Numbered from the stretch's first letter, positions 27,648-50,396 are shown. The stretch is DNA of 64,000 bases from a virus (IMGVR_UViG_3300032020_000845:42980-106979); one strand, 5' to 3'. Program-made: numbers and translations. The notes: a model not told the origin generated them from the letters alone.

Positions 27648-30551
27648 ATGTCACTTAATAGTGTTCGAAAATTATGCGGTGGAGAGATTCCAAGTTTTAT
27701 GAAAAAAGCTTTAGTTACCTTAGCGTATAGAGAAAAAGTTACTTTTTTGAAAGAAAAAGGGGCTATGTTATTCACTGACAAGGGATTTACAAAAATCGGT
27801 TGGAATCTTTTTCGTAAAACGCAGGATCCTGACGCTGGGTCGATCTGGACTGTTACAGCTATTAAAAATGATAAAGGTGAAGAGGAAAAATGGCTCGTGG
27901 CTTATGTTGATGAAGATAATAATGTGTTGCGAAAAGTGAAAGCTTCTATAAAGAAAACTGCACAAGAAGAACCTTTGAGATTTAGGCCAAGCAAAACATA
28001 TTTTCTAACAAATGAAGATTTAGAAGAAATGGAAATAGAACCAAGAAAAGGAGTTAGATTTGAGACTGATAGACTTGAATTTATTTGGGGGACATATGAA
28101 TTAGTAAGACAGAGTATTTCTCAGGATGGGTGGTGGGTAAAAGAAGTAAAACTTGGTCCTCCTTATGGAGAAACAGAAAAAGGTGCTTCCACAAAAATCT
28201 CTCACACTCCAGGAACAATTGTTCAAATAACTGTTCCTCACGGAAACCTTTATGAAAAATATAATGGTAAAATAGGAGAAGTAGTTGCTGCAGTTCCAGA
28301 CCGTTCTAAAGTTAGTTTTAAAGATATGCCTCCTTTTTGGTTTGAAGATAATGTAATTAATCCAATTGTTCCTTGCCCTCTTTGTAATGCAAATGTTTCT
28401 TTACAAATGTTAAAAAAGGTTGGGAAAGTTAAGTGTAAATGTAATGCTTTTTATACTTGGAGACAATTAGAAAAGATTGCAAATAATGATAGAATAAATA
28501 AAGTTGCTGCTGAAAAAATAAAGAAAATTGCTGATACTACTACAATAGAGGAAATAGATTTAGGTGGAGGTAAAAAAATTACTGTCGATTATAATAATTT
28601 TGATAACATGTATAGAGCATTTCTTACAAATGAACAAGGAATAACTGAGTCTGCCGCTACTAGAAATACTAAAGATGAAATTTATGAATGGGTTGAAGAA
28701 AAGAAAACAGAACTTAAAAAAACCTCTACAAAAACCGCTCGAATTGAAGAAAGAAAAGGTGAATATTGTGTAATAGCAGAATCTGGTAGAAGTATGGGAT
28801 GTTACTCTACAAAACCAGAAGCTGAGAAAAGATTAGACCAAGTAGAAATGTTTAAACATATGAAAGGTAAGAAAGCTCAGTTAACTGAACAAGATCCTGA
28901 TTATATTCCTGGATGTCCAGCATGTGAAGAAGCTGTAAAATGTGGTCTCGATTTTGAAGAAACTCATTCAACAGGATTTCCTGGTTTTTTGCAATTAGAA
29001 GATCCAGATACAGGTAAAGAAAGACTTATTCCTAGTCCTCATTATACATATGAAGAAAGAAAAAGATTAAGAGGTAAGAAAGCATGGAAAGATTCTAAAG
29101 GGGAAGAGATCAGTGCTGGAGATTTTGTTCTTTACGCCAGAGATCAAGGATATGACATAGACGCAATAGTTAGGGCAATCAACCAGAGTGGGAATGCCAC
29201 ACTAGAGTTTGACGATGGGAGAGTTATCTATGATGTTCCTGTGACAGGACTGGTTAAATCAGGATCGAAGAAGAAAGCACAAGAGGAACATAAATTATCG
29301 ACGGAAGAAATTATGCAACTTTTAGAGAGTACTAATACAGGGGGTTATTTTTATGCAGATAATTGCCGAATAAATTATTCAAGTGTTTCTGGTTGGTATT
29401 GTAAAGATTTTATTGGTGGTGAAATGGATACTTATAATATTACGGAGGATGAAGCAAGAAGAAAAATAGAAGAAAGTCTAGGAGATGGGAAGTTTGCTTC
29501 TAAAACTGCTCAAAATGTTATTATGTGGTTTGATAGTCCAAATGTTTTAAAAAGTTTAAAGCATTTACAAGGACCTCCAACAAGTCCTGCTACAGAAAAG
29601 CCTTTTGAAAAACCTGAAGAAGAAGGTGATGAGGATGAATTAGAACCTGAAGAAGAGGTTGAAAAAGAAGCTTCGAGGAAAACTGTAGCGGATCCTTTTA
29701 CGAACAAAAGATTTAGAATAGTTAACTTAGATAAATTTAGTATGGGTGATTTTGATATAGAAGATGAAGAAGAATATGAAGAACTTTTAAGACATAATAA
29801 TAAATATGCTCTTGTTACAGGTATTGCTATTTTAGGGTGGACTTTAGAAGAATATTATGTTGATGTACGCTTTGATGACGATTATATAATAACAGGCTTA
29901 AGTGTGTATCATTTAGAAGGAATAAAAGAAGCATCAACAAAAACAGCTCAAACTAAATTTGAATTAGAAGAATTAGTAAAAAAATATCAAAAAGGTTTTC
30001 CAGATATTCCTGAAAGTGATATTAGGGTAGGTATAAAATATGTATTAAAACAACACCCAAACAAAAATCCTGAAGATTTAGATGCGGAAATTGATGGAGA
30101 ATTACAAGCTATCTATGAGGATTTTTATAAACCAAGATTAGCTTCAATAGAAATAGTTGGTAAAAAAATTGAAAGTATTGTAAAAGAAGCAGATGGAATG
30201 GAAAGTTTAAGGGGTGGAGGACAGGGAGGAGGTTCAAGTAAATTGGAACCAATGCAATGGAATGTGCAGGAATCAAAATATCCTCCTCTGCCTAAAGAAG
30301 AAGAAGAGGAAGGTAAAGAAGTTCCTGAAACGGAAGAAGTTGAAAAAATTATAGTAGAAATTGACCCGGAAAGTAAATCTGTTCACGTGAATTTTAAGGG
30401 AGAAAAAGAGGGAGAAAAAGAGGGAGAAGAAGAAGTAAAAACTAAAGAACCAACAGAAATTCCTAAAGGAGCTGAAGTTCCTCCTGAAACAAAAGAAAAA
30501 GAAACAGAAGAGGGAGAGGAAGTTACGCCGGAGTCGCCAGTCGTTTTTTGA
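27648..30551 (+). CDS. Giant modular protein A (967 aa) with KTA linker motifs
   Basis: No single family covers this protein. It is a string of small domains split by short basic motifs: ASIKKTAQ, TSTKTAR, GKKAQ, KKKAQ, ASKTAQ, ASRKTVA and ASTKTAQ. Domains include a zinc-ribbon-like CPLCNAN...CKCNAFY region near residues 245-265, a segment of the GCYSTKPEAEKRLDQVE type seen in phage proteins, a beta-rich DDGRVIYDVPV domain, and a Pro/Glu-rich acidic C terminus. The N terminus, SLNSVRKL, itself resembles the linker motif. It precedes terminase and probably belongs to the virion or to packaging; this is inference. Confidence 0.6.
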   Translation: MSLNSVRKLCGGEIPSFMKKALVTLAYREKVTFLKEKGAMLFTDKGFTKIGWNLFRKTQDPDAGSIWTVTAIKNDKGEEEKWLVAYVDEDNNVLRKVKASIKKTAQEEPLRFRPSKTYFLTNEDLEEMEIEPRKGVRFETDRLEFIWGTYELVRQSISQDGWWVKEVKLGPPYGETEKGASTKISHTPGTIVQITVPHGNLYEKYNGKIGEVVAAVPDRSKVSFKDMPPFWFEDNVINPIVPCPLCNANVSLQMLKKVGKVKCKCNAFYTWRQLEKIANNDRINKVAAEKIKKIADTTTIEEIDLGGGKKITVDYNNFDNMYRAFLTNEQGITESAATRNTKDEIYEWVEEKKTELKKTSTKTARIEERKGEYCVIAESGRSMGCYSTKPEAEKRLDQVEMFKHMKGKKAQLTEQDPDYIPGCPACEEAVKCGLDFEETHSTGFPGFLQLEDPDTGKERLIPSPHYTYEERKRLRGKKAWKDSKGEEISAGDFVLYARDQGYDIDAIVRAINQSGNATLEFDDGRVIYDVPVTGLVKSGSKKKAQEEHKLSTEEIMQLLESTNTGGYFYADNCRINYSSVSGWYCKDFIGGEMDTYNITEDEARRKIEESLGDGKFASKTAQNVIMWFDSPNVLKSLKHLQGPPTSPATEKPFEKPEEEGDEDELEPEEEVEKEASRKTVADPFTNKRFRIVNLDKFSMGDFDIEDEEEYEELLRHNNKYALVTGIAILGWTLEEYYVDVRFDDDYIITGLSVYHLEGIKEASTKTAQTKFELEELVKKYQKGFPDIPESDIRVGIKYVLKQHPNKNPEDLDAEIDGELQAIYEDFYKPRLASIEIVGKKIESIVKEADGMESLRGGGQGGGSSKLEPMQWNVQESKYPPLPKEEEEEGKEVPETEEVEKIIVEIDPESKSVHVNFKGEKEGEKEGEEEVKTKEPTEIPKGAEVPPETKEKETEEGEEVTPESPVVF

Positions 30552-30588: not shown

Positions 30589-33500
30589 ATGTTAATTCCA
30601 AAAGAACCAGAAAAAAATAAAAAAACACACAAAAAGTGGTTTAAGGCAGAGAAGCTAAAAAAAGTTGCTAAGAAAGAATCGTTGCCTCAAGAAAAGGAAG
30701 ACTTAATAAGAAAACATGGACAATCAAATATGAAAGAAACTGTTCTTTCATACGCTTGCACAAATTGTAAACATTCCTTTAGTGCTAATAGTTTAAGAAA
30801 AGAAATTATTGAGTCTGCAAAAAAAGGAAGCACTCTTGTTTATTGCCCAAAATGTGGTCTATTTCTTGTTGCAGATCGTAAAACAAAGATTCCTTCTAAA
30901 CTTGGTTCAAAAATAAACAGGAACGCTGATCTAACTGCTATATATCCCAATCAAGGAATAGTTCCAGGCTATGTGCCTAATACTTGGGTTGATCGTGCTT
31001 TACTTGAAAAAATTTGTCACGAACTAGGAAAATATGCCGAATCAGTAGGTATGTTTAATCCTCAATTAAAATTTCAAAGAGGCATTCGAGGAAAAGTTCG
31101 TGAAGGTTCTCCTCAAAATGTGAAATACGCGGAGTATACAATAGAGTCTGTGGATAATTATGATGTTAGATTTCGTGTTATTGCTACTGCTGGAATTACT
31201 CCTATCGGAAAAGTAATAATTTCTAATGTGTTTAGAACCTTGGACGGTAGAGAAATATCGTTCACACAAGAAGGAGTTGAAGGTTTTGTATCAGGTAAAG
31301 TTTATGGTTCTCCAGACGTTAAACCTGTTGTTCCTCAAATTTATTACAAAGAGCGTGATCCTTCGAGGTTTAGAGAAATAGTTGCTTCAAAGAAAACCGC
31401 TTTTGTGAAAGGTATTGATGATATTCCTAATATGGAGTTTTCAGAAATGAAAAGAAAAGTTATGGAAAGGTTAAAACGAAAGTATCCAGAATTCAAAATT
31501 TCAGATCTTGATGCTTATTCAGATAATACTATTGACGGGATGAGAGATCATTGGACTGATTTTGGCAATCCTCGTATGACTGTTCAAGATTGGTTTGAAA
31601 ATGTTGTGGATACGATCGATGCTGATTTAGAGGAGGAGGCTAGTCAGTTTATTACTAGAAAAAAAACAGCAGCAGGTGTTCCTATTCCTGGTCAACAAAT
31701 TGAATATCAAGGAAAGATATATACAGTTGATACTGTTGTTGGAGATACTTCTATATTAAAAGATGAAACAGGATTACAAACAGCTCCGGTTCCTAATTTA
31801 GAGTTAAATATTCAACAAGGAGGTTCTGGTTTAGCAGCTCCTGCTGCTCCTATTACAGCTCCAGTTGCTAAAAAGATTGAAGAAATTGTTAAAAGAGGAT
31901 TAAGGGATGAAAAAACTTTAGTTCCATTTACTGAATCGGATCCTGATTATAGTGTTGCAAAACAAACTGATGTTGATCCAGATTTTAGTACTCCTTATGA
32001 GAAATCTGACCAAGGGATTCTTGAGGAAAAGGATAGAGCTGTTCAGCAAATGTTTAGAGGAGGAACTTCAGTAAGACCTACTAAATCTGCTGCAGAGATA
32101 AGATGGCAAAGAGTGAAGGATGAGTTTTATGATACAGTAGAACAAGATACTGGTCCTTGGGTTTTGAAAACCCTTTCTCTTGAATCATATGTGGATGTAC
32201 CAAAACATTGGCTAGATGCTTTGAGAAAAGATCCAGAAGGCCTTTCTCAAAATTTTGTTTCACATTGGGCTGAGAAACATAGTTATACGTTGCGAGACGA
32301 TGAAAAACGAGAACTTCAAAAATTATTTGTAGATTGGGTGTTTGAATTTGAGACTGAAAAAGAAGCTTCTCTAACCAAAACTGCTCCTGAAAAAGCTGAC
32401 CTTGAAAGTATGGTTCAAAAATGTATGAGAGACAAAGGATGGGAACATGCTAAGTGTATGAATTATGTTGCTGGAGGTGTTTGGCATAGAAAAGGGAAAG
32501 TAGATGGACTACATCCCGGAATGCATGGCCACACAAAAGATGGCTATAAATTTGTTATTCTTGATGTTCAGGGAAATGAAATTCAAGTTGACCAAGAAAA
32601 TATAAGTGGTTCTTTTTGGACTGACCGAAATGAATGGGAAGGAAAAGAAAGTCCTCAATATGTTGAAAAATCATTGGAACCAGGAATGTATGGAAATACA
32701 AAAGATGGTTATAAATTTGTTATTCTTGATGTTGAAGGAGATACAATTCAAGTTGACCAAGAAAATATAAGTGGTTCTTTTTGGATTGGTAGAAACGAGT
32801 GGGAGAAAAAAGAAGCTCCTCACTATCTCCAATATGTTGGAAAACCATTGGAGGAGGAAGAGGGAGAAAAGGAAGCTTCAATAAAGAAAATAGCTGAACC
32901 AACAGGTTATCACGAAACGGATGAAACAGGAAAACAAATTGAACTTTCTCGTTTAAGAACACTTGTTGAGGATTATTATAGAGCAGGACAATTTCCCCCA
33001 GATTTTGATTATACTAAAGTAATGTCAGAGGTTTCTCGAATGACAAGAAAACAACTATTAGATATTCTTGACAAAAAACTTAAAGATACTCATTATCCTG
33101 TTGTTCATGCGAAGAAGAAAACAGCTGTTAGAACAAATATGTTATGTGTTGATAGTGAAGGAGAAAAGATTCAGTTTAAAAAATTGGAAGATGTTTTTAA
33201 TGATTTAGATGATAGATTTTTATCAAATATATACGATGAATTGGAGTGGCTTCCTTTGGATTCGAGAAAACTTAAAGAGGTATTAAAACTACTTGGATAT
33301 TCTCGTATTACTAATAATGATATACAACAGTTATTACAATGGATAAAAGAAGAATCTCCAGAATGGTTTATGACTCTTGAAGAATATAAAAAAGTAGCGG
33401 AAGGATTTATTCAAGAAAGTCTGAAAAAAGTTGCTTCAACAAAAACAGCAGCTACAGTAGATGAGATTAATGAGATTCTTCAAAAAAACTATGGAATAAC

Positions 33501-34770
33501 TTTTTCTATATATAGTAGAAGGATGAAATCCCTTCTAGACAGAATCCTCAAAGATAAAGGTTTTCCAATAGAAGAGTCGATAGATTCTTGGATGAAAGAA
33601 ACTGATGGAGGAAAGCTAATTGTTGGATCAAAAGGTAAATCATCTAACCAAATAGTTCAAGAAATTCGAAAAGCAGATCTTACTGAAAAGGATATTAAAA
33701 AACAAATTAAAGATGAAGAAGAAGGCGAAGAAACTTATAATGAAATGGCAACGGAAGTTGTATGTCCAAAAGCAGAAAAAGCTTTAGAAGATATGGCTGA
33801 TGATGAAGCGGCTCACGCAGAAAAGTTAGAGGAAATTGTTTTACCTGCTGTTGAAGAAGAAGAAGAGGATACTGAGAAAGAAGCTTCAATAAAAACAGCA
33901 GTTGAGTATGATAGTTGGGATAGTGAGGAATTAGATAATGGATGGACAGTTATTGGTGATCAAAGAAGTGATGATTCTGACTATAAACTTGTACGAGTTA
34001 GGGATACGGAAACTGCAAGTCATTATAAAACTCTTGCTAAAGGGTATAATGTTCTAGATTTTGAAGAGTATGTAGAAGAAGTTAAAAAGTGGCCTCCACC
34101 TTCATTTACAAAAAAGAAAACAGCTCAAGAAGAAGTAGAAGAAGAAAAACCAAAAACAGAATATAAAGAATTAAAAACAAAACCACACAAACCAGAGTTG
34201 GAAGTAGAAGAAGAAGCTATTGTTGCAACTCCAGAAATGCAAAAAACTTTTCACGAAATACAGAACCATAAGCAAAGGTTGACAGAAATTAAAGCTCTTA
34301 TAGAGGAATCTCGACGTAAGGTGGAAGAGGAAATTCGTAAAATTCAGGAGGAACACGGAGCGATTAAGGAAGCGTCAGATGTGCAGGAGGGGATCGAAAA
34401 GTTAGCTGCTCTTGTTGAACAAGCTGAAACTCAAATAGTTGACCTTGGAGAATTTTTTGCACATTTAGATACATCTATAAAGGAGAAAAAATTTAAGCCT
34501 TCAGATGCGTGGAGAGTCCAAAAGTTATTGGAAAAATTTGGAAAGGAGGCGGAAACTTATTTAGATAAGGCTGAAAAGGGATCTAATTCTTTAAATACTG
34601 AAGTGAAACAACGTATTCTTACAGTATTTCCAAAACGTGAAGGATCTATTGAAAAGGAAGCTACTGTTTTTGATGCTATAAGAGAACTTGGAGAAAATCT
34701 TTGGTCATATGTTAAGTCTTTAAGTGAAATTTCAGCAGAAGGAGAACAATTGGAATTAGTTCTGGAATAA
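30589..34770 (+). CDS. Giant modular protein B (1393 aa) with KEAS-x-KTA linker motifs
   Basis: This is a second chain of modules. It opens with a basic region and a zinc ribbon (CTNCKHSF...YCPKCGLF), then a beta-rich domain around residues 130-260. Linkers ASKKTAF, TRKKTAA, ASLTKTAP, ASIKKIAE, AKKKTAV, ASTKTAA, ASIKTAV and TKKKTAQ separate later modules, often after an acidic EEE stretch. One module is a 55-residue unit in tandem duplicate. The C-terminal third is coiled coil. No catalytic motif stands out. Location and composition suggest a structural or internal virion protein. Confidence 0.6.
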   Translation: MLIPKEPEKNKKTHKKWFKAEKLKKVAKKESLPQEKEDLIRKHGQSNMKETVLSYACTNCKHSFSANSLRKEIIESAKKGSTLVYCPKCGLFLVADRKTKIPSKLGSKINRNADLTAIYPNQGIVPGYVPNTWVDRALLEKICHELGKYAESVGMFNPQLKFQRGIRGKVREGSPQNVKYAEYTIESVDNYDVRFRVIATAGITPIGKVIISNVFRTLDGREISFTQEGVEGFVSGKVYGSPDVKPVVPQIYYKERDPSRFREIVASKKTAFVKGIDDIPNMEFSEMKRKVMERLKRKYPEFKISDLDAYSDNTIDGMRDHWTDFGNPRMTVQDWFENVVDTIDADLEEEASQFITRKKTAAGVPIPGQQIEYQGKIYTVDTVVGDTSILKDETGLQTAPVPNLELNIQQGGSGLAAPAAPITAPVAKKIEEIVKRGLRDEKTLVPFTESDPDYSVAKQTDVDPDFSTPYEKSDQGILEEKDRAVQQMFRGGTSVRPTKSAAEIRWQRVKDEFYDTVEQDTGPWVLKTLSLESYVDVPKHWLDALRKDPEGLSQNFVSHWAEKHSYTLRDDEKRELQKLFVDWVFEFETEKEASLTKTAPEKADLESMVQKCMRDKGWEHAKCMNYVAGGVWHRKGKVDGLHPGMHGHTKDGYKFVILDVQGNEIQVDQENISGSFWTDRNEWEGKESPQYVEKSLEPGMYGNTKDGYKFVILDVEGDTIQVDQENISGSFWIGRNEWEKKEAPHYLQYVGKPLEEEEGEKEASIKKIAEPTGYHETDETGKQIELSRLRTLVEDYYRAGQFPPDFDYTKVMSEVSRMTRKQLLDILDKKLKDTHYPVVHAKKKTAVRTNMLCVDSEGEKIQFKKLEDVFNDLDDRFLSNIYDELEWLPLDSRKLKEVLKLLGYSRITNNDIQQLLQWIKEESPEWFMTLEEYKKVAEGFIQESLKKVASTKTAATVDEINEILQKNYGITFSIYSRRMKSLLDRILKDKGFPIEESIDSWMKETDGGKLIVGSKGKSSNQIVQEIRKADLTEKDIKKQIKDEEEGEETYNEMATEVVCPKAEKALEDMADDEAAHAEKLEEIVLPAVEEEEEDTEKEASIKTAVEYDSWDSEELDNGWTVIGDQRSDDSDYKLVRVRDTETASHYKTLAKGYNVLDFEEYVEEVKKWPPPSFTKKKTAQEEVEEEKPKTEYKELKTKPHKPELEVEEEAIVATPEMQKTFHEIQNHKQRLTEIKALIEESRRKVEEEIRKIQEEHGAIKEASDVQEGIEKLAALVEQAETQIVDLGEFFAHLDTSIKEKKFKPSDAWRVQKLLEKFGKEAETYLDKAEKGSNSLNTEVKQRILTVFPKREGSIEKEATVFDAIRELGENLWSYVKSLSEISAEGEQLELVLE
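32533..32785 (+). repeat. In-frame tandem duplication, 165-base period
   Basis: Two copies of a 55-residue unit lie in tandem inside giant protein B. The core of each, from ACAAAAGATGG at 32533 and at 32698, is almost identical in DNA, including silent positions, over about 90 bases. This indicates a recent duplication or gene conversion. The encoded core is GYKFVILDV followed by IQVDQENISGSFW. Confidence 0.85.
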
Positions 34771-38900: not shown

Positions 38901-38973
38901 ATGGGGGGGTAAGAAAAAAGAGGATATAAGAGACAGACTTCGAGGAATAGATTCAAAAAGAAGTTGGAGATAA
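35971..38973 (+). CDS. terL: Terminase large subunit interrupted by an intein
   Basis: The 1000-residue product becomes a terminase of about 633 residues after splicing. The ATPase part has a Walker A-like GRRGSKSS at 98-105 and LIFDE at 234-238. The RNase H-like nuclease part has IIVVDPAS, ICYDQWN-S at the insertion site, and TTDDFADC near the end. It pumps DNA into proheads and cuts it. The intein (37393-38493) splits the conserved DQWNS motif of the nuclease, so splicing is needed for activity. The start has only a weak ribosome binding site. Confidence 0.92.
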   Translation: MSFKEIVDEKYKEKSELIAPMESVDALTFVTSHKWLGEKPFPSQSLILKLLYGLWKKYPIIEEEQKLIDTLKTAWNINIDLENRDINQVIEVLILVIGRRGSKSSVVSWIASFEAYKLLCKGNPQKYYKIRERHPIHILNCASDGDQAKETFNLIKDNIKKIDFFQKYIDFDKDNETEMRLFSPYDLFLNSQIRRYNETRGKGSMKKNLLRGSICIESVTTSAATKRGKAIIGLIFDEFAHFGRSKYRKRTLEVMEAPQTDHAMWVALTPSVKDFGKDGLIIAISSPAEKAGEFYTLYCLAGGMEQNESEKLPPNPKYLLLQLSTWQANPRFVKEDFVDDYSKDPVNASMEYGAHFAEPAASFLNPQRIDDMVVEGAPILLRGRSGQLYIIVVDPASTSDTYAIAWGHREDRPTEKYWIDGLKGFEPTTKRLGDGRIIIEPIDSDIVMDFLLTLIRNLNVMGKQVMEICYDQWNCKIGSAKLFTNEGMKTIEELCKENKPILVATKDGFAKAEKFYDNGVRSVVKIRTKFGYEDVGTKNHPFWTKKEWQCIGDLKVGDEVAIQPSALFNKCSTISVNRAIIYGYLTSEGQCSGNNTIIGFSNIEKDILDDYCFLFEQEFGKVPHRRLINKKFYKTRKDSRGNIVLEDTAALWSKEITEELRKHEVLGTSFTKHVPKPIREGSKEVCCAYLSALFEGDGTIGFYPQKNTKYGQTDTYICYDSRSEDLVKDVHLILLNLGIISSRMTGIQVGKPVHRITIRGKNIDRFAVLIGFRGKRKKARLEKVLDHRRPLKKFRVKSYLDNDNIFWDKIISIEEMPPERVYDITVPGKHSFVVNGFITHNSIDSIRTLRKMKLPAFETTFTNPYKGVIYGTFLEKLNQGQMCCYEIDPDPAENWVAKLKLELKYLQKIISGGTTYYAAPTSGPVTTDDFADCCANLVYRLSSRKEMSSKTIRELHKQLGSPIPLGRVINPQKGGPIWGGKKKEDIRDRLRGIDSKRSWR
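37393..38493 (+). other. Intein with LAGLIDADG homing endonuclease in TerL
   Basis: This 367-residue insertion begins with Cys (CKIGSAKLF) and ends VVNGFITHN before an extein Ser, the standard splice-junction residues. Block B appears as GTKNHPF, and block F as VYDITVPGKHSFVVNG. Two LAGLIDADG-like helices are visible, IIYGYLTSEGQC and AYLSALFEGDGTIGF, so the endonuclease may be active. Flanking exteins join in frame at DQWN-SID. Confidence 0.93.
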
Positions 38974-40338: not shown

Positions 40339-43300
40339 ATGATAAAATTAGGTAGTGAACCGAATTGGGTTTTTGCAGATCTTGATTTGATTTCTGAATT
40401 ACTGGTTGAAAATAATATTCCTATTGAACATCCAAATTACGAAAAATACAAAGATTATATATTAGGCAAGTTTGAAGGAACGTGGTTTGTTTCTCCAGAG
40501 GAAATGGAAAAGGCAGTTCTTCAATATATTCCAAAAACAGCTTCTTTAAATTTTCGAAAAACAGCTGAACCTGAAACCCTTCAAGAAAATTTCTACGAAC
40601 CAGGAAAGTCCGATGAATATCCAAAAGGACCTAAAAAACCTCGCTTACGCTTTCCATTTTATAATTATCCAGATGATCAAGGAAATATAATTAACATAAA
40701 ACCTGATATTTCTAATCCAATGGAATATGATACAACTCCAGGACCTCATCCTCAAGGACCTGGAATATGTGGAAGTTTAAGTATGAAAAAGAGAGCACAA
40801 TCTAAAGGTCTTCTTACCTATAAAAAGCTTACGGATATTATGATGGTAGTGAAAGATCTTCAGCAGGTTGACTCTTTAGACTCTGACGAGGTTGAAGACC
40901 TTGCTGAAAATCTATATAATATTTTTGGAAATGATATATTGTCGGGAGCAATCTTAGCGGCGCATGAAGATAAAGCTTCTAGGTTTATACAAATGATAGG
41001 AGAGTATTTAGCTTTATCAACGAAAATAGGGTTGAAACCTTTAACTAAAGAGCTTTTAGAGAGTTTGATTAAGGTTTGCCAAGATCCAAGTAACCCAAAA
41101 CATCAGATAAAGAAAGTTCCTTTGGAAGATGTTTTTGAACCTAAGAAAGAAGAAGATGAATTTGAGGAAACTGAAGAAGAGATAGGTGAAAGATGGAAAG
41201 AAAAAGAAAAACAGATTCTACCTGAAAAAAAAGAACTCTCTCCAGAAACAATGGAAGTTCCCTATACCTTTCTACGAGACAAATACACTGAAGATGAAAT
41301 ATGGGATATAGCTAGAGGTAGAAAAACTGATGTATCTCCAGAAGAAATAGAAATGGCTAAATTTGTAATTGAGAGAGGTATTGTAGCCGGTAGATTGGGA
41401 ATGAGAAAAACTTCAACAACTGTTTCTGAACCAACTCCTGATGAATCATTACATGAACAACAAGGAGAACATCCAGGGCATACTTATTTTCAAGGAAGAG
41501 ATGAATGGGAAGATAAAGAACCTGATCAGGGGTTTGATATATTATTTCCAGAGAAGGTAAGAATAAAAAGGGATCCTTGGCTTTTTGAAGATAATCCAGT
41601 ATCTGAAATGACTGCAAGTAGATTAAATATGAGAAAGAAAGCTTATATTAATTTAGATAATTTAAAAAGATTATATGAAGGACAATTAAAACATCTTGGA
41701 GTTTATGATAGAGAATTAATGGAAGAAGTTAGAACAGATTTATTAGTAAATTTAGAGAATTTGATAAAAAGTACATTTAAAAAGTATAAAGGTTGGGAAG
41801 AAGAAGATATTCCAGCGGATCTTGAAGTTATTCAAGAATATGTTGATGGTTTAAAACAATCGCTAAAAAAAGATTCAGATTTAATGGTAATGATTGATTC
41901 GACAGTGAATGTTATACATCATTTTTTTGAGGATCATGGAGAACATTATTTGCTTTCTGAGATAGTTAATCCTAGACAAATTGAAAGGGCAGAAGAATTA
42001 CTTGCTACTATTTTTTCGCAAGTTAGTGAAAAATTGGAAGAAAAAGAAGAAAAACCAAAACCTTCCATACCTAAAAAAGTTCCTTTTGTTGATAAACGAG
42101 GTAATCCTCTTAAAATAAATGATATTGTATTTGCAAAAGATGAAGGATATTTTGGTAAATATGGAAGAATTGTATCCGTTGATCCTGAACCAATATATCT
42201 TTCTGATTTAGAAAAGTGGACTTATTCTATGTATGTAGAAACTACAGTAACAGAAGAAATGTTGGCAACTGAAGTAGTGTTAAGTAATGATATTGATAAG
42301 GATTCTATTGCGGTTGAGGCTACTAATCATATTCTTCAATTGGTAAAGAAAAAAGCATTTGATGTGAACAGTGCTTTTGATGTAATATTAGATGAATTGT
42401 ATATTGTTCTTGATCAAGAAATGATTCAGAAAATTAAAAATAATTTATATGATGAAGGGATAGATATAGAAAAAGAAGCTAAAAAATTATTGAGTGTAAG
42501 AAAAAATAATTCAACTTTTCAATTAAGTATACGAAAGAAAGCAATTATTTCTCCATTGCAACTAAAAAAGTTGTATGAATTAGAATTGTTATATAGAAAA
42601 GGAAATTTTGGTATTGAAGAGCAACTCGACAAATTATCAGAATATATAGTAAAAGAATTAATAGAGTTTTTAAATGATTGGTTACAATTTTATATTGCTG
42701 AGGAAGGACTAAATGAAGAAGCAAAAGCAGCAACAAATAGATTAGAATCTTGTAAACAAGAACTCGAGAATGCTTTTGATATCGATTCAAAAATAGTTGC
42801 AATAGATACTACTATAAATACAATGCATGTTGATTATGATGTCTTTGAACATTTAATTATGACATTTGAAGAATATGCAGAAAGGGAATTTAGATCAAAT
42901 AGAAAAGAGATACAAAAACACTATCAAGTATGGGATTCTTTGAAGACTTTTCTTCAGGAACAGGGTAAACTTACTGAAAGAATTTTTGAAAATAGATTAA
43001 ATATGAGAAAAATAGCTCTTGATCCTTTAACTCAAAGAGAATTATTACAAACTGGAATATTATTTCCATCTCCGGAATTTATAGAAAAAATGAACCTAAA
43101 AAAGGAAAAAGATAAAGAAGAACAAAAAGATAAATATAGAAGTTTTCAAAAACCTTTTGAACTAAAACATGAAAAAGGTTTAAAAGAAACTATACGAAAG
43201 AATATTGAGGAACAATTTATTATACCTCAACAACTAAAACTTCGATTTGACAAATTTGCGCAGGAATCCCCTAGAACCTTGGGGCCTCAAATAACAAAAC

Positions 43301-44778
43301 AAAAAATAAGAAGATTATATGAACAAGAAGCTAAAGGTATTTATGATGAAGAATTACTGGATGAAATTATTTCAGGATTTTTAGTAACTTTAGAAAGTTG
43401 GGTTAATTTTGAAGAATACAAAATAAAGTATCTTTTGCAATATGTAACTGATGATAGTTATGATCTAATTAGAGAAGCAGAAGATTTAATTCAACCTTTA
43501 CACTCAGCAACAACTCCACAAGAGAAAATGATTGCAATAGATACTGTAATAAATATTGTTCATCAAACGGGAAAATATGGAGAGTATTTGATAAAAGGAA
43601 TAGACCCTGGAGATTTATCCTTTTTTGATGACCTAAGTAATTTGAAAGTTAGTAGTTTAAGTTTAAAAAGAATTGCTCAAATTACAGAAGTTAACATTGG
43701 AGATGAAGTAGAATTTGACACTACTCGTTATTTTCGAGTTGGTAGAAGTAAACAAGGAGGAGTTTTAAAAGGTAAAGGAATTGTTAGAACGAAGAATGAG
43801 GATGGTTCATATGATATTGAGATAACAGAAATAACTAATGCTCATATAGATATTGCTCATATATTTAAACCTGGGCGTACTACTCCCTTTTTGGTAGATG
43901 AAATAAAAGCATTTGTAAAACCAAAATTTGAGCCTAAAAAAGAAATTCCAACTCCTGTCGAGGAGCCTAAAATTGAAAAACCTAAAGAAGTAAAAGTTGA
44001 ACCAGAGAAAGTTCCTGTTGAAAAGCCTATTATTTTTGAGTTAGCAGAACCAGAAGAAGAAGAAATTCCAATACCTGTTGAAGAGTTTGGAGAACCTGAA
44101 CCAAAAAAACTAAAGAAAAAATTTCCAACTTGGAAAGAATTGGGGCAAATTGTTTGGGAGTCTTTTAAAAGACCTGTGACAAGACCTTTTGGTAGTATAT
44201 TAAATATGAGAAAAGCTAATAAAATATCAGGCCGAAAACTCCTGTCTGTAGGCTTATGGGCTATTTATAATGGAGAGATATATAGTAAATTAGAAGATGT
44301 GAATAAATACGAGGGACATGAAAATTGGTTTGTAGAATTAGGTTTACCTGTGAAAGGAACAGAATACGATTATATTACTCGTGGTATTTATAGACCAGAT
44401 AGAATAGTATGGTATGAAGGTACTGGAACTTTTGAAGAATTTTCTGATAATATTGAAGAGTTAAGAAAAAAGTTAGAATTACCGGAGAATGTTAAAATTG
44501 AATCTGCCCCGGGTTTCTCAGAAATAAAAAAAGCTGAATTAGATATGAGAAAATCAGATATACAAAAAGATGTTCCTATTGAAAGTGCTTCTCCTATATT
44601 TAAACCTGAAGATACAATTAAGAATAAATCAATGGAAGAAGCTACATACAAAGTAATGGAATATGATCCAAAGGTTGATGAATATTTAATTGTTGGTGGT
44701 GTTAAAGATAGAATAATAAGAGTAGATCGAAAAACATTGGAAAATATTTGTGACTTAGTTGAGGGGGAGGGGAAATGA
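40339..44778 (+). CDS. Giant modular protein C (1479 aa) with SLNMRKxA linker motifs
   Basis: Nine short motifs punctuate this protein: SLNFRKTAE, SLSMKKRAQ, RLGMRKTST, RLNMRKKAY, QLSIRKKAI, RLNMRKIAL, SLSLKRIAQ, ILNMRKANK and ELDMRKSDI. Between them are three copies of an approximately 100-residue helical module (K-x-LYE...KMIAID...INxVH), a KOW-like beta segment (INDIVFAKDEGYFGKYGRIV), a Pro/Glu/Lys-rich spacer around residues 1200-1260, and one WAIYNG module near the end. It shares modules with protein D, with which it overlaps by four bases. Role inferred as virion or processed cargo. Confidence 0.6.
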   Translation: MIKLGSEPNWVFADLDLISELLVENNIPIEHPNYEKYKDYILGKFEGTWFVSPEEMEKAVLQYIPKTASLNFRKTAEPETLQENFYEPGKSDEYPKGPKKPRLRFPFYNYPDDQGNIINIKPDISNPMEYDTTPGPHPQGPGICGSLSMKKRAQSKGLLTYKKLTDIMMVVKDLQQVDSLDSDEVEDLAENLYNIFGNDILSGAILAAHEDKASRFIQMIGEYLALSTKIGLKPLTKELLESLIKVCQDPSNPKHQIKKVPLEDVFEPKKEEDEFEETEEEIGERWKEKEKQILPEKKELSPETMEVPYTFLRDKYTEDEIWDIARGRKTDVSPEEIEMAKFVIERGIVAGRLGMRKTSTTVSEPTPDESLHEQQGEHPGHTYFQGRDEWEDKEPDQGFDILFPEKVRIKRDPWLFEDNPVSEMTASRLNMRKKAYINLDNLKRLYEGQLKHLGVYDRELMEEVRTDLLVNLENLIKSTFKKYKGWEEEDIPADLEVIQEYVDGLKQSLKKDSDLMVMIDSTVNVIHHFFEDHGEHYLLSEIVNPRQIERAEELLATIFSQVSEKLEEKEEKPKPSIPKKVPFVDKRGNPLKINDIVFAKDEGYFGKYGRIVSVDPEPIYLSDLEKWTYSMYVETTVTEEMLATEVVLSNDIDKDSIAVEATNHILQLVKKKAFDVNSAFDVILDELYIVLDQEMIQKIKNNLYDEGIDIEKEAKKLLSVRKNNSTFQLSIRKKAIISPLQLKKLYELELLYRKGNFGIEEQLDKLSEYIVKELIEFLNDWLQFYIAEEGLNEEAKAATNRLESCKQELENAFDIDSKIVAIDTTINTMHVDYDVFEHLIMTFEEYAEREFRSNRKEIQKHYQVWDSLKTFLQEQGKLTERIFENRLNMRKIALDPLTQRELLQTGILFPSPEFIEKMNLKKEKDKEEQKDKYRSFQKPFELKHEKGLKETIRKNIEEQFIIPQQLKLRFDKFAQESPRTLGPQITKQKIRRLYEQEAKGIYDEELLDEIISGFLVTLESWVNFEEYKIKYLLQYVTDDSYDLIREAEDLIQPLHSATTPQEKMIAIDTVINIVHQTGKYGEYLIKGIDPGDLSFFDDLSNLKVSSLSLKRIAQITEVNIGDEVEFDTTRYFRVGRSKQGGVLKGKGIVRTKNEDGSYDIEITEITNAHIDIAHIFKPGRTTPFLVDEIKAFVKPKFEPKKEIPTPVEEPKIEKPKEVKVEPEKVPVEKPIIFELAEPEEEEIPIPVEEFGEPEPKKLKKKFPTWKELGQIVWESFKRPVTRPFGSILNMRKANKISGRKLLSVGLWAIYNGEIYSKLEDVNKYEGHENWFVELGLPVKGTEYDYITRGIYRPDRIVWYEGTGTFEEFSDNIEELRKKLELPENVKIESAPGFSEIKKAELDMRKSDIQKDVPIESASPIFKPEDTIKNKSMEEATYKVMEYDPKVDEYLIVGGVKDRIIRVDRKTLENICDLVEGEGK
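44254..44499 (+). repeat. WAIYNG module, copy 1 (in protein C)
   Basis: This 82-residue coding module starts LWAIYNGEIY and carries NWFVELGLP, ITRG and a GTFEEFSDN segment. Three further copies lie in protein D. It is the only copy in protein C. Confidence 0.8.
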
Positions 44779-47700
44779 CTTTATTTATGAGAAAGAAAGC
44801 AGGGATTGAAACTCATGAATATAGATTTAAACAATTTCACAACCATAAAATTCCAGCATATACTTTTATTGGATATCAAGAAATTCCTTCTGGTGGGAAA
44901 ATGTTGATGTTTAATTGTAATATTTGTGAGAGTACCTTAATGTTATTTCCAGAAGAAGTTAAAGCTAATATAGATAGAATTTCTGGTTTGCTAGATGATT
45001 GGGAACAAGTTGTTAGTAACATAAAAAAGGCTAATGAATTTACATCCATAGAAAAAGAATTTGTATTAAAATTTGTAAAAGAATTTGAAAGGATGAATGA
45101 CGCTAAAGAAATTTATGAGGAATTAGTTAGTGATACATTTATGTTTGAACTGACAAATCATTTGGAAGAGGATTTAGGCATTTCAAAAGAGGATAGCAAT
45201 GATTTTGCTCTTGCTATTTATAATCGATTATATTCGGATTATCGTGTATTTACAGAAGTTCCTTTTCAAAGTGTTGGAAGTTTAAGGTTTGAGAATATAA
45301 AGAAAAATATAGATAAAGTAAAAATTTCCACAAAATATAGAGGTCCTGTTGTATCAATTTTAGAAAGTATTGCTCCGGCAGTTTGGAGTGCTTCTGGTTT
45401 AAAAGAGGCAAAAGATATAATTATAAGTACAGTTTCAGGTTCTCATATTGATGAAGATGATAAACAAAAGATTTTAAATAATGTTGATAAAATTAACAAT
45501 TTATTAGAATTGCAAAAGTATATTGCAAACTCAATTTTGTTTTATGAAGGAATGGGGACAAAGTTAAGTATGCGAAAGAGATCTCAAATAGATAAACAAC
45601 TATTTTTTGACTTTTATGGAGTATCTTTACTGTCAGATAATTACTTAGAACAAAATCCTTACGCAAAACAATATAGAAATATGATTGTACAAAGTATAAA
45701 AGATGTTTATGTTCCTCTGATTACTAAAATGGTTTATAGTGAACTTAGAAAACATACTGATCGCATGTATAATTGGGAGGATTGGATAGAAGAATTTAAT
45801 CTTAAAAATGTCAATAGTCTTACTTTAGAACAACTAGCTCAAATATATAATGAAGGAGTCTGGGTAACAGAATATGGTGGTCCCTCTTGGGGGTCTATTG
45901 TTGAATCTCTAATTCAACTTAAAAATACTTCTGATACTAATCAACTCATAACTGTTATAGATCATATCAATGATATTGAACACAATACTGGTTTAATGTT
46001 TCACGATTTTCCGAAAGTCAAAAAGTGGTTTTCTGATGCTTTAGAAACTAAAGCTCAAGCAACTCCTGAACAACTTATACCTTATCTTTCTTCTGATTTA
46101 CAAAAATTAGTTATAGAAGATTTAAGATTAAAAGGAAAAGAAATTATATCTCCCGAAAAATATATTACAAGAGATGAAAAATTTGAACTTGCCCAAAATC
46201 CATCAACTCCTCCAGAAATCTTAGCTGAATTAGCAAAAGATAAAGATGAATTTGTTCGTATAAATGTTGCAGGAAATCCAGAAACACCTCCAGAAATCTT
46301 AGTAGAATTAGCGAAAGATATAGATAAGTATGTTCGTATACGGGTGGCTTATAATCCCAATACCCCTCCCGAATCATTAGTGGAATTAGCTAAAGATGAA
46401 GATGAAGAGGTTCGTTTGTATATTAAAAGAAATCCTTCTACTCCTCCTGAAACTTTAGCAGAATTATCAAAAAATACATTAGAGTGGGAGCGTCCTGAAA
46501 TAAAAGAAGAAGAAAGCTTTAACTTAAGTATGAGAAAAACATCAATTTCGGACCAAGAAATTATTAACAATACTATTTTCTATTTCACAAAAGAAAGAAT
46601 AGATTTACCGAAAACTGAAACATATATTTATGATTATCTTCTAAATCAACATCCAGAATTAAGTTCTTGGGAAATAGAAAGACTTACACAAAAAGTATTA
46701 AATATTTTACCCAAACCAGTTTTAACAAAAGTTCATAAAACAGCAAAAGTGTTTACTATGGGAACTCCAGATACTTTTGAATCTGGGTGGGCAATATATC
46801 AAGGAAACATTTATATAAATTATGGTAGGGAGGAACACCATTCTCAATGGTTTGAAAAATTTGGTCTTCCTACTTCAGGAAAGGCTTTTGACGAGTTAGT
46901 TCGAGGGTATTCTGAAGGCGGAAGAATTGTTTGGTATGGAACTGGAGATTATAATGAGTTTGCAGATTATTTACCAGAATTAGTAAATGCTTTAGGAATA
47001 TCAGATCCTACTATACAAATGATTGATTATACAACACAAGAATTTAAAACTTTAGCAATGAAAAAGGAAACATCTATCCTCGATTACCCACATAAATATT
47101 TAGATTCTGAAATATGGGATTTGTCAACTGATCCTCCAAAACTAAAAAAAGATATTAAAAGTTTTATTATGAATCGTTTTATTGATTACTTGGTAAAAGA
47201 AGGATTAAATAGTCCAGAATTGTGGTGTAAGGAATTTTACTATACAGGGTCAACTGCTACACATCAATATCAAAAATCTTCTGATATAGATATTCATATA
47301 AGAGTCGATTGGGAAGCATATAAAAAAACTAATCTAGATAAAGCAAAAGAAGATGCTGAAGAAATGCGTAAAGATTTGTTAAAAGTGTTTTGGAATACTT
47401 TAAACAAAGAATATCTACCTGGAACTTCACACCTTCTTACATATTATATATTGTCTGAATGGGAAGATGTAATGACACAAACGGAAGAAGCATATGATAT
47501 ACAAAAAGATGTTTGGATTGTTCCTCCTCAAAAAATACCTGAAACATATGACACAGAACAAAAAATAGATTTACTACAAGAACAAGCAAACTACATTATG
47601 GAAAAATTAGATGTGGAATTAGGTAAAACAAAAAGAGATTTTGTTGACTATAAGGTTTTAAAAGAGCTATTAGGTTCTTACGAAGGAAACAAAGCAGATA

Positions 47701-50396
47701 TTCAAAGATTAGTAGAAGAAAAGTTAAAGAAAGTTGAACAAGATTTAAAACAATTACAAGAAGAGAATATAAAAATTCATGAAGAAAGGAACAAGGCTTT
47801 TTATGACGGTCAAGAACCGATTGAAGAAGGATTAAGTAAAAACTGGACTCCGGGAAATATTATTTTTAAGTTAATTGAGAGATACAAATATATAGACATA
47901 TTGAGAAAAATTAAGCAAATAATTAAGGATGAAAAAATTACTGGGGAGGAAGAAAAAGAATTAGAAGATATTTTGGAACCGAAATTAAGTGCTGAATTAT
48001 CAACACTTTGGGCAATTTATAATGGTACTATTTATATTGGGAAACAACTTGGGCTTCTAACACATTCAACTTGGTTTGAAGAAATAGGTCTTCCAAGTAG
48101 TGGTTATGAATTTGATAAAGCTGCTCGCGGTTATTATCTTCCTGATCCAAATATTATTTATTGTTATGAAAATATTGAATCTTGGAATGAATTAATTGAT
48201 AATTTACCTAAATTAGTAGAAAAATTGCAAGCAGATTTAAATACTTTAAAAATTTATTTTGCTAAAGAAAATGATATTCCAAGAGTACTTAAATACAAAG
48301 ACCTTTTTGTAAATGCTTCAAAATTAAGTATGAAGAAAGCTAAAATTTTTCCAGGAGGTTTATGGGCTATTTATAATGGAAAGATATATACTACTGACGA
48401 AGAAGATGAGCATGATAAATGGTTCGAAGATATAGGGTTGCCTTCATATGGTGAAGAATATGATAGTATTACTCGGGGTGATTATGATTCAACAGGGATA
48501 TTATGGAATTTTGATACTGGTACTTTTGAAGAATTTTCAGATAATCTTCCGAAATTATTAAAAATATTGGGGTTACCTAGTACCACTAATGTTATGGTTC
48601 CAAAATTAAGTATGAGAAAAGAGACTTCAGTTCCAAATCTAATTCTTGAACAATTAGATTATCCTCATTCTTGGCCTCAAAAAAAGAGAGACGATAAAAA
48701 GGAGAAAGATGAATCTATTGGTTTTGGTATATTTCAAGGGGACTATGATGAACTTTATGATGTTCTTGATTCTATTAGGGAAGAAATTGCAAACAACTTA
48801 TGTATGAGAAAGACAGCACAAGATATTTCTGATCCTAATAAATTATCAATACAAGAACTTAAACAATTCTATGAATTAGAATTACAAGGATTACTTACTA
48901 ATGAATTTGTGGATAATGTTCTTACTAAACTAATTTATGGACTGCAAATAGAAAAAGAAAGAGTATCAAAAGATCCTGAAATTACGGGATATGTAAAAAA
49001 AGATTTTATAGCAATAGCGGATTTTTATATTAATGAGTTAGAAAAGGTTGCTACAAAAAGTTTAAACAAAAAAATTATTGAAATTGATCAAACAATACAA
49101 GCATTACACTTATCTTATGGGTTTGGAGTATTTCAAGGCGATCCAGATGAAATTTGGGAAACCCTTGATTTTATTGGAGAAACAGTTTGGACTAAATCTA
49201 AACCTTTAGAGTCAAATATTAGTTTGAATATGAAAAAGACAGCTGATCTTTCTGCTGCTCCTGCAATTTCTGATATGGAAGTTCCTGAAAATTGGGGAGT
49301 GCAAGATAAAACAAATATAAAATTAAGACGAAAGAATCCTCCGAGACATGACAAGAATGATTCAATTGTGGAACAGAATATAGTTGATCCTCATATTGAT
49401 ATGGCTTCATTAAATATGAGAAAGAAAATAGGTCAGGAAAAGGAAGAAGGAATTCTGCCAAAACCTCAAGTTACAAAACAAGACTTAATAAAATTATATA
49501 CTCAAGAAGCAAAAGGTATTTACGACGAAGAACTAATGAATGAAGTTATTTCAAAATTTATACAAACTTTAGAAGAATGTGAAGAATTTTGGGGTGCTTG
49601 GATGCAAAAATTCGGAAAGACTTTAATTTTAACATTACTACAAGCAAGAACTCCTCAAGAAAAAATGATTGCAATAGATAGAGTAATAAGTACCGTTCAT
49701 GTCGATGGTGTATTTGGAGAATATTTAATAATAGATGTAATTGGTGATAATTCCTTTTTTGATGAATTGCATAATTTAAAAATTAGTTCTTTGAATTTTA
49801 GAAAAAAAGCAAAAGAAACTAATCTTGACAAAATTGACGAATATCTTTTTGAATTACTTGATGAAGTAAGTGATGGAACAGGTAAAGAAGAAATTACAAT
49901 TGACGGAGAAACTTACTTAATTCATTATGAAGGATGGAGTTCAGGATGTTTTCCTGAAAATTTGCCAGAAAAAGAATGGGAAGATTATGCTGCTGAACAA
50001 TCAAACAAAGTTATTGACGAGTGGAAAGAAGAAGAAAAAAATAGATGGGACATAATTCCAGAATTGTCTGGGTACATTAGTGGAGGATTATATGGAAGGA
50101 CATATACAGTTTTTCATTTGAAAAATAAAAAAGCAAATGTATTTTATAATAGAGAGAAAAAGGGATTTGAAGGACAACCAACAGACAAAAATTATTACAG
50201 CCCTTCTTTACTTTTACGAGAAGATTATGGAACTCCTGGACTTCCTTCAGAACCGGCAAAAGCAGAAGTAGCTGATTTAGGAGAAGACCAATGGGGAGAA
50301 AGTAATAAACTAAAGAAGAAAAAACTTAAAGAGTTAGAATTTCCAGATTTTAATATTCCTTACGGAGTGGAAGGTGGCGACATAAAACAAATTTAG
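44775..50396 (+). CDS. Giant modular protein D (1873 aa) with MRK linkers, LRV repeats and a nucleotidyltransferase domain
   Basis: The protein begins with a linker-like LFMRKKAG and contains nine more: KLSMRKRSQ, NLSMRKTSI, TLAMKKETS, KLSMKKAKI, KLSMRKETS, NLCMRKTAQ, SLNMKKTAD, SLNMRKKIG and SLNFRKKAK. Modules between them include a helical bundle, four NP-x-TPPE repeats (46197-46476), three WAIYNG modules, a Pol beta-type nucleotidyltransferase domain with TGSTATHQY...SSDIDIHIRV (47236-47310) followed by coiled coil, and two copies of the helical module. It is the largest gene in the window and shares modules with protein C. Confidence 0.62.
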   Translation: MTLFMRKKAGIETHEYRFKQFHNHKIPAYTFIGYQEIPSGGKMLMFNCNICESTLMLFPEEVKANIDRISGLLDDWEQVVSNIKKANEFTSIEKEFVLKFVKEFERMNDAKEIYEELVSDTFMFELTNHLEEDLGISKEDSNDFALAIYNRLYSDYRVFTEVPFQSVGSLRFENIKKNIDKVKISTKYRGPVVSILESIAPAVWSASGLKEAKDIIISTVSGSHIDEDDKQKILNNVDKINNLLELQKYIANSILFYEGMGTKLSMRKRSQIDKQLFFDFYGVSLLSDNYLEQNPYAKQYRNMIVQSIKDVYVPLITKMVYSELRKHTDRMYNWEDWIEEFNLKNVNSLTLEQLAQIYNEGVWVTEYGGPSWGSIVESLIQLKNTSDTNQLITVIDHINDIEHNTGLMFHDFPKVKKWFSDALETKAQATPEQLIPYLSSDLQKLVIEDLRLKGKEIISPEKYITRDEKFELAQNPSTPPEILAELAKDKDEFVRINVAGNPETPPEILVELAKDIDKYVRIRVAYNPNTPPESLVELAKDEDEEVRLYIKRNPSTPPETLAELSKNTLEWERPEIKEEESFNLSMRKTSISDQEIINNTIFYFTKERIDLPKTETYIYDYLLNQHPELSSWEIERLTQKVLNILPKPVLTKVHKTAKVFTMGTPDTFESGWAIYQGNIYINYGREEHHSQWFEKFGLPTSGKAFDELVRGYSEGGRIVWYGTGDYNEFADYLPELVNALGISDPTIQMIDYTTQEFKTLAMKKETSILDYPHKYLDSEIWDLSTDPPKLKKDIKSFIMNRFIDYLVKEGLNSPELWCKEFYYTGSTATHQYQKSSDIDIHIRVDWEAYKKTNLDKAKEDAEEMRKDLLKVFWNTLNKEYLPGTSHLLTYYILSEWEDVMTQTEEAYDIQKDVWIVPPQKIPETYDTEQKIDLLQEQANYIMEKLDVELGKTKRDFVDYKVLKELLGSYEGNKADIQRLVEEKLKKVEQDLKQLQEENIKIHEERNKAFYDGQEPIEEGLSKNWTPGNIIFKLIERYKYIDILRKIKQIIKDEKITGEEEKELEDILEPKLSAELSTLWAIYNGTIYIGKQLGLLTHSTWFEEIGLPSSGYEFDKAARGYYLPDPNIIYCYENIESWNELIDNLPKLVEKLQADLNTLKIYFAKENDIPRVLKYKDLFVNASKLSMKKAKIFPGGLWAIYNGKIYTTDEEDEHDKWFEDIGLPSYGEEYDSITRGDYDSTGILWNFDTGTFEEFSDNLPKLLKILGLPSTTNVMVPKLSMRKETSVPNLILEQLDYPHSWPQKKRDDKKEKDESIGFGIFQGDYDELYDVLDSIREEIANNLCMRKTAQDISDPNKLSIQELKQFYELELQGLLTNEFVDNVLTKLIYGLQIEKERVSKDPEITGYVKKDFIAIADFYINELEKVATKSLNKKIIEIDQTIQALHLSYGFGVFQGDPDEIWETLDFIGETVWTKSKPLESNISLNMKKTADLSAAPAISDMEVPENWGVQDKTNIKLRRKNPPRHDKNDSIVEQNIVDPHIDMASLNMRKKIGQEKEEGILPKPQVTKQDLIKLYTQEAKGIYDEELMNEVISKFIQTLEECEEFWGAWMQKFGKTLILTLLQARTPQEKMIAIDRVISTVHVDGVFGEYLIIDVIGDNSFFDELHNLKISSLNFRKKAKETNLDKIDEYLFELLDEVSDGTGKEEITIDGETYLIHYEGWSSGCFPENLPEKEWEDYAAEQSNKVIDEWKEEEKNRWDIIPELSGYISGGLYGRTYTVFHLKNKKANVFYNREKKGFEGQPTDKNYYSPSLLLREDYGTPGLPSEPAKAEVADLGEDQWGESNKLKKKKLKELEFPDFNIPYGVEGGDIKQI
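46197..46476 (+). repeat. Four LRV-like repeats in protein D
   Basis: Three full and one partial 26-residue units of the form NPxTPPExLxELAKDxDxxVRxxVA run in tandem. This matches leucine-rich-repeat-variant or HEAT-like repeats that form a curved protein-binding solenoid. Confidence 0.85.
46785..47021 (+). repeat. WAIYNG module, copy 2 (in protein D)
   Basis: A diverged copy beginning GWAIYQGNIY, with QWFEKFGLP, ELVRG and DYNEFADYLPEL. It lies immediately before a TLAMKKETS linker and the nucleotidyltransferase domain. Confidence 0.8.
48006..48227 (+). repeat. WAIYNG module, copy 3 (in protein D)
   Basis: A copy beginning LWAIYNGTIY, with TWFEEIGLPSSG, AARGYY and an NELIDNLPKL end. It follows the coiled-coil region after the nucleotidyltransferase domain. 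Confidence 0.8.
48360..48596 (+). repeat. WAIYNG module, copy 4 (in protein D)
   Basis: A copy beginning LWAIYNGKIY, with KWFEDIGLPSYG, ITRGDY and TGTFEEFSDNLPKL. Its DNA is closely similar to copy 1 across the start and the GTFEEFSDN segment, which suggests recent exchange between proteins C and D. Confidence 0.82.

Follow-up and report, generated by a model that had tools for sequence, protein, structure and literature searches.

In this work, a DNA window of 64,000 nucleotides was analyzed, corresponding to positions 42980-106979 of the IMG/VR virus record G000 (106,979 bases). The record is a fragment, and the protease and capsid genes are absent from it. Four large open reading frames are present in the window, and the lengths given for them in a first-pass annotation (967, 1393, 1479, and 1873 aa; proteins A, B, C, and D, respectively) were borne out by an ORF check. 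The interval which that annotation assigned to the feature (27648-50396) also includes genes that do not belong to it, namely small genes and the genes for a terminase with an intein and for a protein of 258 aa. The large terminase is split by a LAGLIDADG intein (approximately aa 473-842). The terminase of the related phage G001 carries an intein at a different position of the same gene, that of the related contig L145 has none, and the portal gene of G001 also carries an insertion resembling an intein. Genes similar to those of the queuosine/preQ0 pathway (QueF-, QueE-, and QueC-like) are located elsewhere in the window, which suggests modified DNA or tRNA, together with small lipoprotein-like ORFs containing dockerin-type repeats (GDLDLDGDVDWDDW). 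In addition, a run of glycosyltransferase- and methyltransferase-like ORFs lies beside tail genes (G000:C1:5650-28045), and its order is largely kept in G001. The coordinates of the features are summarized in Table 1.

Table 1. Large proteins, motif copies, modules, and neighboring genes in the window.
Feature	Window position	Strand	Evidence or remark
Queuosine/preQ0-pathway-like genes	24-3393
Small lipoprotein-like ORFs	5182-5502 and 6116-7198
Protein A, 967 aa, A/B-type motif K(K)TA	27648-30551	+	Homologue G001:70219-73056, 39% identical over aligned positions
ASIKKTA in A (aa 99)	27942-27962	+	Homologue has ASKKTA
ASTKTA in A (aa 762)	29931-29948	+	Sequence
Protein B, 1393 aa, A/B-type motif, rubrerythrin-like stretch	30589-34770	+	Homologue G001:65791-69165, 54% identical over aligned positions
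ASKKTA in B (aa 266)	31384-31401	+	Homologue identical
ASIKKIA in B (aa 763)	32875-32895	+	Homologue has SSIKKTA
ASIKTA in B (aa 1099)	33883-33900	+	Sequence
Large terminase with intein	35971-38973
Protein C, 1479 aa, C/D-type motif	40339-44778	+	8 profile matches
LNFRKTA in C (aa 70)	40546-40566	+	Profile
LSMKKRA in C (aa 147)	40777-40797	+	Profile
LGMRKTS in C (aa 353)	41395-41415	+	Profile; bounds cassette C156-359
LNMRKKA in C (aa 429)	41623-41643	+	Profile
LSIRKKA in C (aa 729)	42523-42543	+	Profile
LNMRKIA in C (aa 887)	42997-43017	+	Profile; predicted disordered
Helical module EAKGIYDEEL in C (aa 985-1104)	43291-43650	+	Homology and structure model
LSLKRIA in C (aa 1107)	43657-43677	+	Profile; pLDDT<50 gap, folded module on either side
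SH3/Tudor-like barrel in C (approximately aa 1112-1195)	43672-43923	+	Model; Foldseek Tudor/SH3 prob up to 1.0, E 0.06
LNMRKAN in C (aa 1288)	44200-44220	+	Profile; predicted disordered
WAIYNG module in C (aa 1303-1390)	44245-44508	+	Homology
Protein D, 1873 aa, C/D-type motif	44775-50396	+	8 profile matches and N-terminal copy
LFMRKKA at N-terminus of D	44781-44801	+	Aligns with internal SLNLRKKAG of gCD at 1788
LSMRKRS in D (aa 264)	45564-45584	+	Profile; starts module D264-583
LRV repeat module in D (aa 461-565)	46155-46469	+	Pfam LRV E 3.8e-18
LSMRKTS in D (aa 584)	46524-46544	+	Profile
WAIYNG module in D (aa 672-744)	46788-47006	+	Homology
Nucleotidyltransferase module in D (aa 764-1070)	47064-47984	+	Pfam NTP_transf_2 E 5.8e-5, above its cut-off
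WAIYNG module in D (aa 1078-1156)	48006-48242	+	Homology
LSMKKAK in D (aa 1184)	48324-48344	+	Profile
WAIYNG module in D (aa 1195-1273)	48357-48593	+	Homology
LSMRKET in D (aa 1278)	48606-48626	+	Profile
LCMRKTA in D (aa 1342)	48798-48818	+	Profile
LNMKKTA in D (aa 1484)	49224-49244	+	Profile
LNMRKKI in D (aa 1546)	49410-49430	+	Profile
EAKGIYDEEL module in D (aa 1566-1670)	49470-49784	+	Homology
LNFRKKA in D (aa 1673)	49791-49811	+	Profile
HtrA/trypsin-like serine protease (GNSGGG)	52110-53018	+	Sequence; same place kept in G001 and L062

The consensus of the motif repeated in these proteins, as read from their sequences, is hydrophobic-x-[RK]-K-[KT]-[AS], in the form SLNMRKKA in C and D and ASxK(K)TA in A and B. 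With a 12-position profile, eight C/D-type matches were found in C and eight in D, besides the N-terminal LFMRKKAG of D (approximately 0.15-0.19 expected in each). The strict C/D pattern occurs seven times in D and five times in C (shuffle means 0.01), and in none of the other predicted proteins of the record (149 in the set). K(K)TA was counted 5 times in A and 11 times in B (shuffle means 0.36 and 0.54, respectively), strict ASxK(K)TA two and three times (0.00 expected), and the median spacing between motifs was 149. The profile trained on C and D gave 25 matches in the motif proteins of G001 (0.05 expected), and the one trained on G001 gave 14 matches in C and D (0.03 expected); since the profile is derived from the same protein family, such within-family counts express conservation and not independent origin. 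The recurring motif noticed in the first-pass annotation is therefore confirmed, as it stands above shuffles and is cross-validated between two phages, and the motif profile that was proposed there as a check does find copies in relatives. The 34 copies counted there are roughly matched once degenerate copies are added, and exact counts are threshold-dependent because of the two forms and the degenerate copies. Protein D indeed starts with a copy, which aligns with an internal copy in G001. The SLNSVRKL at the start of A, also taken for a copy, corresponds to SYLNKVRRL in the homologue and is a conserved N-terminal segment. Acidic stretches were said to precede the motif often; this holds for the A/B form (D/E fraction 0.26 vs. 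0.19 overall) and not for the C/D form (0.19 vs. 0.18). A role of the motif Met as a translational start was ruled out, because Leu, Phe, and Ile substitute for it and there is no ribosome-binding sequence upstream.

The closest relative, G001 (IMGVR_UViG_3300032046_005540, 168 kb), was found via the WAIYNG module and independently via the motif pattern. Most of it is collinear with G000, typically with 60-80% protein identity, and it contains the capsid-to-tail region that is absent from G000. In G001, C and D are one gene of 3263 aa (gCD) with 19 motifs in the same neighborhood, preceded by the terminase and a 230-aa protein and followed by a 454-aa phosphoesterase and the serine protease. 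The motif proteins of its head and tail clusters comprise 1185, 297, 117, 518, and 3263 aa, together with A' and B'. Two further versions, neither in the training set, were a 2431-aa protein in L062 with 11 profile matches (0.24 expected) and a protein of at least 2830 aa in L145, whose frame is open at the contig end, with 15 profile matches. L145 (JAGMCF010000133.1) is a contig binned in a Candidatus Cloacimonadota MAG, a weak hint to the host of this phage. The full-length D query gave no relatives in IMG/VR, and the A query gave none among GenBank phages. A degenerate DNA pattern for LNMRKKA matched 31 stretches, with multiple in-frame copies only in G001; the other stretches look like chance or other protein families. 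A 70.8-kb contig (L039) has a short WAIYNG match only and no motif, and a Lokiarchaeota locus (L146) has a weak match and no motif; both were set aside. Homing-endonuclease-like ORFs are numerous in G001 (L045-L053; approximately 15) and occur in L062 and L145. They share an N-terminal ICxEYFSxEKPSTxxLAKKW and a C-terminal RFWxxDILNNxExV, and several adjoin motif genes.

Approximately 20 module families recur in C, D, and the proteins of the relatives in shuffled order, with the first and last modules fixed and the middle ones reordered. Between C plus D and gCD, 19 families are in common and only eight adjacencies are kept, while the flanking gene order is unchanged. The ends of homology blocks lie within 12 aa of a motif in 85 of 241 cases (30.5 expected; p = 2e-19, a value that is too generous because the blocks overlap). 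The motif-flanked cassette D264-583 corresponds to residues 5-333 of the 518-aa G001 protein (g518; 59% identity), and cassette C156-359 to residues 17-220 of the 1185-aa one (g1185; 63% identity), with motifs bounding it in both proteins. Furthermore, L062 is without one whole EAKG module at a site where C and G001 have one. The modules that the annotation considered common to several of the four proteins are common to C and D; between A/B and C/D there is one weak match, of B with D (E 0.007). Pfam domains found in the large proteins are LRV, NTP_transf_2, and rubrerythrin, and the nucleotidyltransferase module of D is 72% identical to gCD 2538-2843. Modules resembling ADP-ribosyltransferases, ParB, and sigma factors were recognized by eye in gCD (L038, aa 2845-3000), L062 (aa 1097-1186), and the 1185-aa protein (L045, aa 735-940); for these, Pfam gave only a sub-threshold match to sigma-70 region 2.

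Breakage of shuffled modules at the motifs would also be expected if the motif were a recombination scar, that is, short common DNA at module joints that promotes shuffling and has no role at the protein level. The codons are indeed non-random: the Ser at the second position, which alternates with Asn (AAT), is encoded by AGT in 22 of 22 cases (33% overall), and the motif Leu is never CTT (n = 47; 20% overall). This bias suggests that the copies share descent, or that homology or constraint at the DNA level aids shuffling. On the other hand, the Arg and Ala codons of the motif hardly depart from the average for these genes, the peptide pattern is common to distant phages with a clear orientation, and the motif also occurs at the end of the protease domain described below. 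A scar is therefore very improbable as the explanation.

The position of the motif relative to folded domains was addressed by the structure prediction that the first-pass annotation had suggested. C was modeled over aa 880-1300, a stretch with three motifs at 887, 1107, and 1288 (model residues 8, 228, and 409). All belong to segments with pLDDT<50, so the three modeled sites lie in predicted disorder and not inside folded domains; that at 1107 sits between the helical module and the SH3/Tudor-like barrel, both modeled confidently. The notion of deliberate punctuation is thus supported, as the motif marks the borders of shuffled modules in four related phages and falls in predicted disorder. 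Such a location would also suit ordinary flexible basic linkers between the modules of scaffold-like proteins, kept by common descent only, and copies within one protein may be duplicates. However, modules with no relationship to one another are joined by one and the same residue pattern, which also turns up in unrelated proteins of distant phages, and we regard plain linkers as the least probable of the explanations, with hardly any chance of being correct.

Because G000 is without protease and capsid genes, the protease was inferred from the collinear G001. The capsid protein of G001 matches phrog_2522 (E 9e-54) and is 40% identical to gp27 of phage G. Upstream of its gene, a 1444-aa protein has an N-terminal domain matching phrog_18299, head maturation protease (E 9.6e-11), a family that was matched by 44 of 44 aligned members, with the His and Ser of H...SMG invariant in the alignment. 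The model of the protease family (pLDDT 84.7) resembles many predicted prohead proteases in BFVD (E approximately 1e-6 to 1e-8), and its top PDB match is a herpesvirus capsid-maturation protease (prob 0.84), which alone is weak given its E of 0.18. The 1444-aa protein carries both motif types (RKTA, KRKTA, SKKAD, and RKKAS). An alignment-based scan yielded 80 loci with the protease domain, 79 of which are distant and were used for tripeptide counts. After removal of near-duplicates, RTA and KTA were the most over-represented tripeptides outside the protease domain of these loci: [KR]TA was counted 295 times vs. 101 expected and S.{0,2}[KR]TA was 5.5-fold enriched, whereas the reversed AT[KR] (82 vs. 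104 expected) and permuted triplets were near expectation. In Mycobacterium phage Ghost (14 vs. 2.4; remaining sequence examined 15 vs. 12.4) and Gordonia phage Stormageddon (15 vs. 3.3; remaining sequence examined 15 vs. 13.2), the [KR]TA excess is limited to the head cluster. Little enrichment was seen in phage G, and no clear motif was seen at the N-terminus of the capsid proteins of the group that were examined.

Moreover, [KR]TA is found at +20 to +42 after FFExS in 18 of 48 protease proteins (the set with non-redundant tails), and later windows of the same size contain 0-3. When [KR][TVI]A is counted instead, a binomial test gives p = 2e-9 on the assumption that the proteins are independent, which is only partly true. 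Examples are VLVANRRTAAAG, VVVAGLRTAD, and GLGKAASKTAAAG, with the variants KIAS in G001 and KVAS in phage G. This peak coincides with the place at which self-release of a head protease would be expected. In distant protease proteins (e.g., L112 and L108), a conserved [KR]xAHR precedes the domain and many start with M-L-[RK]-K-[YF]-A, possibly a second processing point; [KR]xAHR was not counted as support for cutting, since it may be plain homology.

The motif could also be a multivalent docking or capsid-targeting tag, in which each module's peptide would bind the prohead shell, the scaffold, or the protease for packaging and fusions would keep every tag. Its restriction to head-cluster proteins, its presence at the N-terminus of several of them (MLYSLSFRKTSQ, MKKLNMRKKLG, and MTLFMRKKAG), and the capsid-targeting precedents of T4 and P1 (PMC3012670; PMC9024508) agree with this. 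Copies are also placed at C-terminal ends (...RLSMRKEGSRE and ...SLNMRKKSYIMYND...), though, and the [KR]TA peak at the protease-domain end fits a cut better, so we consider tagging unlikely, if still worth keeping in mind. An N-terminal tag of the T4 type as the sole explanation was ruled out because most copies are internal and some C-terminal. By analogy with T4 internal proteins, which have a targeting sequence and are processed, tag and cut would not be exclusive. Another protease might instead cut the dibasic motif, possibly after ejection; a candidate is the HtrA/trypsin-like one encoded downstream, as the order of the 454-aa phosphoesterase and the serine protease beside the C/D gene is kept in G001 and L062. 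The QIIY before its GNSGGG points to the HtrA type, however, which would favor an aliphatic over a basic P1, and across the clade the motif follows the head protease. A different cutter therefore appears quite improbable.

We consider it probable, with some reserve, that A-D are head polyproteins and that the repeated motif is a recognition and cutting site of the head-maturation protease. Its conservation, its position between folded domains, its restriction to head clusters, and the protease-end peak are, at the level of sequence, best explained by a cleavage motif. Among the three readings offered in the first-pass annotation, protease sites are thus the most supported (by the clade link and the protease-end peak), and targeting tags and anchors to another virion protein are less so. 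In the form of long chains, A-D would become part of the prohead, and the head protease would cut them at the motifs into pieces of mostly approximately 60-450 aa that are kept in the head. The core cleavage motif, K-[KT]-[AS], would have been inherited by a large phage clade, with the C/D form as a variant particular to one lineage. Because this form has drifted from KTA (RKKA, RKTS, and RKET), one protease must tolerate both forms. Since the cut sites would lie in flexible linkers between independent domains, modules could be gained, lost, or reordered without breaking folding or processing, and this freedom would explain the shuffling. Some modules are likely to be ejected into the host as "polyvalent" effectors, because several look like enzymes or binding domains. 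We infer the cutting, the head protease as the cutter, the exact bond, the packaging, the ejection, and the functions of the modules. Apart from the drift of the C/D form and the capsid proteins examined, which show no clear N-terminal motif, it speaks against this reading that the protease domain of G001 ends in EKIAS and not in KTA, and that in one protein the chain stops soon after a motif (RLSMRKEGSRE), so that cutting there would free few residues.

More broadly, the whole clade may use one K/R-T-A head cleavage code, from which some members would have made an open-ended platform: chains of up to approximately 20 swappable modules, including host-acting enzymes, that are packaged whole and cut in the head into separate injected proteins. 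To this extended proposal we give somewhat less than an even chance. The T4 capsid-targeting tag is N-terminal, with one per protein, unlike the many internal and terminal copies per chain observed here. T4 internal proteins are diverse packaged proteins with one short peptide in common, as here (PMC3012670). In SPN3US, a short motif (AXE) is the site at which numerous head and ejection proteins are processed by the head protease gp245, which cuts long propeptides several times and removes its own C-terminal propeptide (PMC10052503). Its substrates mostly lose one N-terminal propeptide and its motif ends in Glu (PMC10052503), whereas the motif described here combines basic residues with Ala/Ser, and 8-20 copies of it separate the folded modules. 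Polyvalent proteins (Iyer et al. 2017; PMC5512222) are very long multi-domain proteins of phages and conjugative elements with enzyme and binding modules, including Pol-beta nucleotidyltransferases; packaging and injection, and in some cases proteolytic processing, have been proposed for them. The composition of C and D fits, with several globular domains of different kinds per chain (2-15 in polyvalent proteins); D has a nucleotidyltransferase above the Pfam cut-off, and the ART-, ParB-, and sigma-like modules of the relatives are recognized by eye or below the cut-off. No repeated short motif between modules was found in the part of that paper considered here, whereas in the present proteins one motif marks most of the joints. 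Processing of polyvalent proteins is attributed there mainly to metallopeptidases that are part of the chains themselves, whereas here the protease would be a separate head gene.

The head clusters of phage G, Bxz1-type mycobacteriophages, and Stormageddon contain homologous capsid protein and head protease genes, as in G001. In the Bxz1-type phages and Stormageddon, [KR]TA is over-represented in the head-cluster proteins. None of the proteins seen in this group of phages was a shuffled C/D-type protein with the SLNMRKKA form. In the open-license literature, no published cleavage sites or motif were found for the head protease of phage G, Bxz1, or Stormageddon, and no description was found of a repeated common site inside shuffled polyproteins. 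The annotation's remark that no described phage system has this layout accordingly stands for the repeated-site shuffled polyprotein and not for its parts, since both injected polyvalent proteins with several domains and processing by prohead proteases are known. The analysis yields a predicted head-protease cleavage motif for the group of phage G, Bxz1, and Stormageddon, and this prediction is testable in laboratory phages. If the cutting is true, tailed phages have real multi-site polyproteins, the modules of which evolve by shuffling. It would also mean that the head contents of large phages are readable from sequence, with the motif as a possible code for cargo loading.
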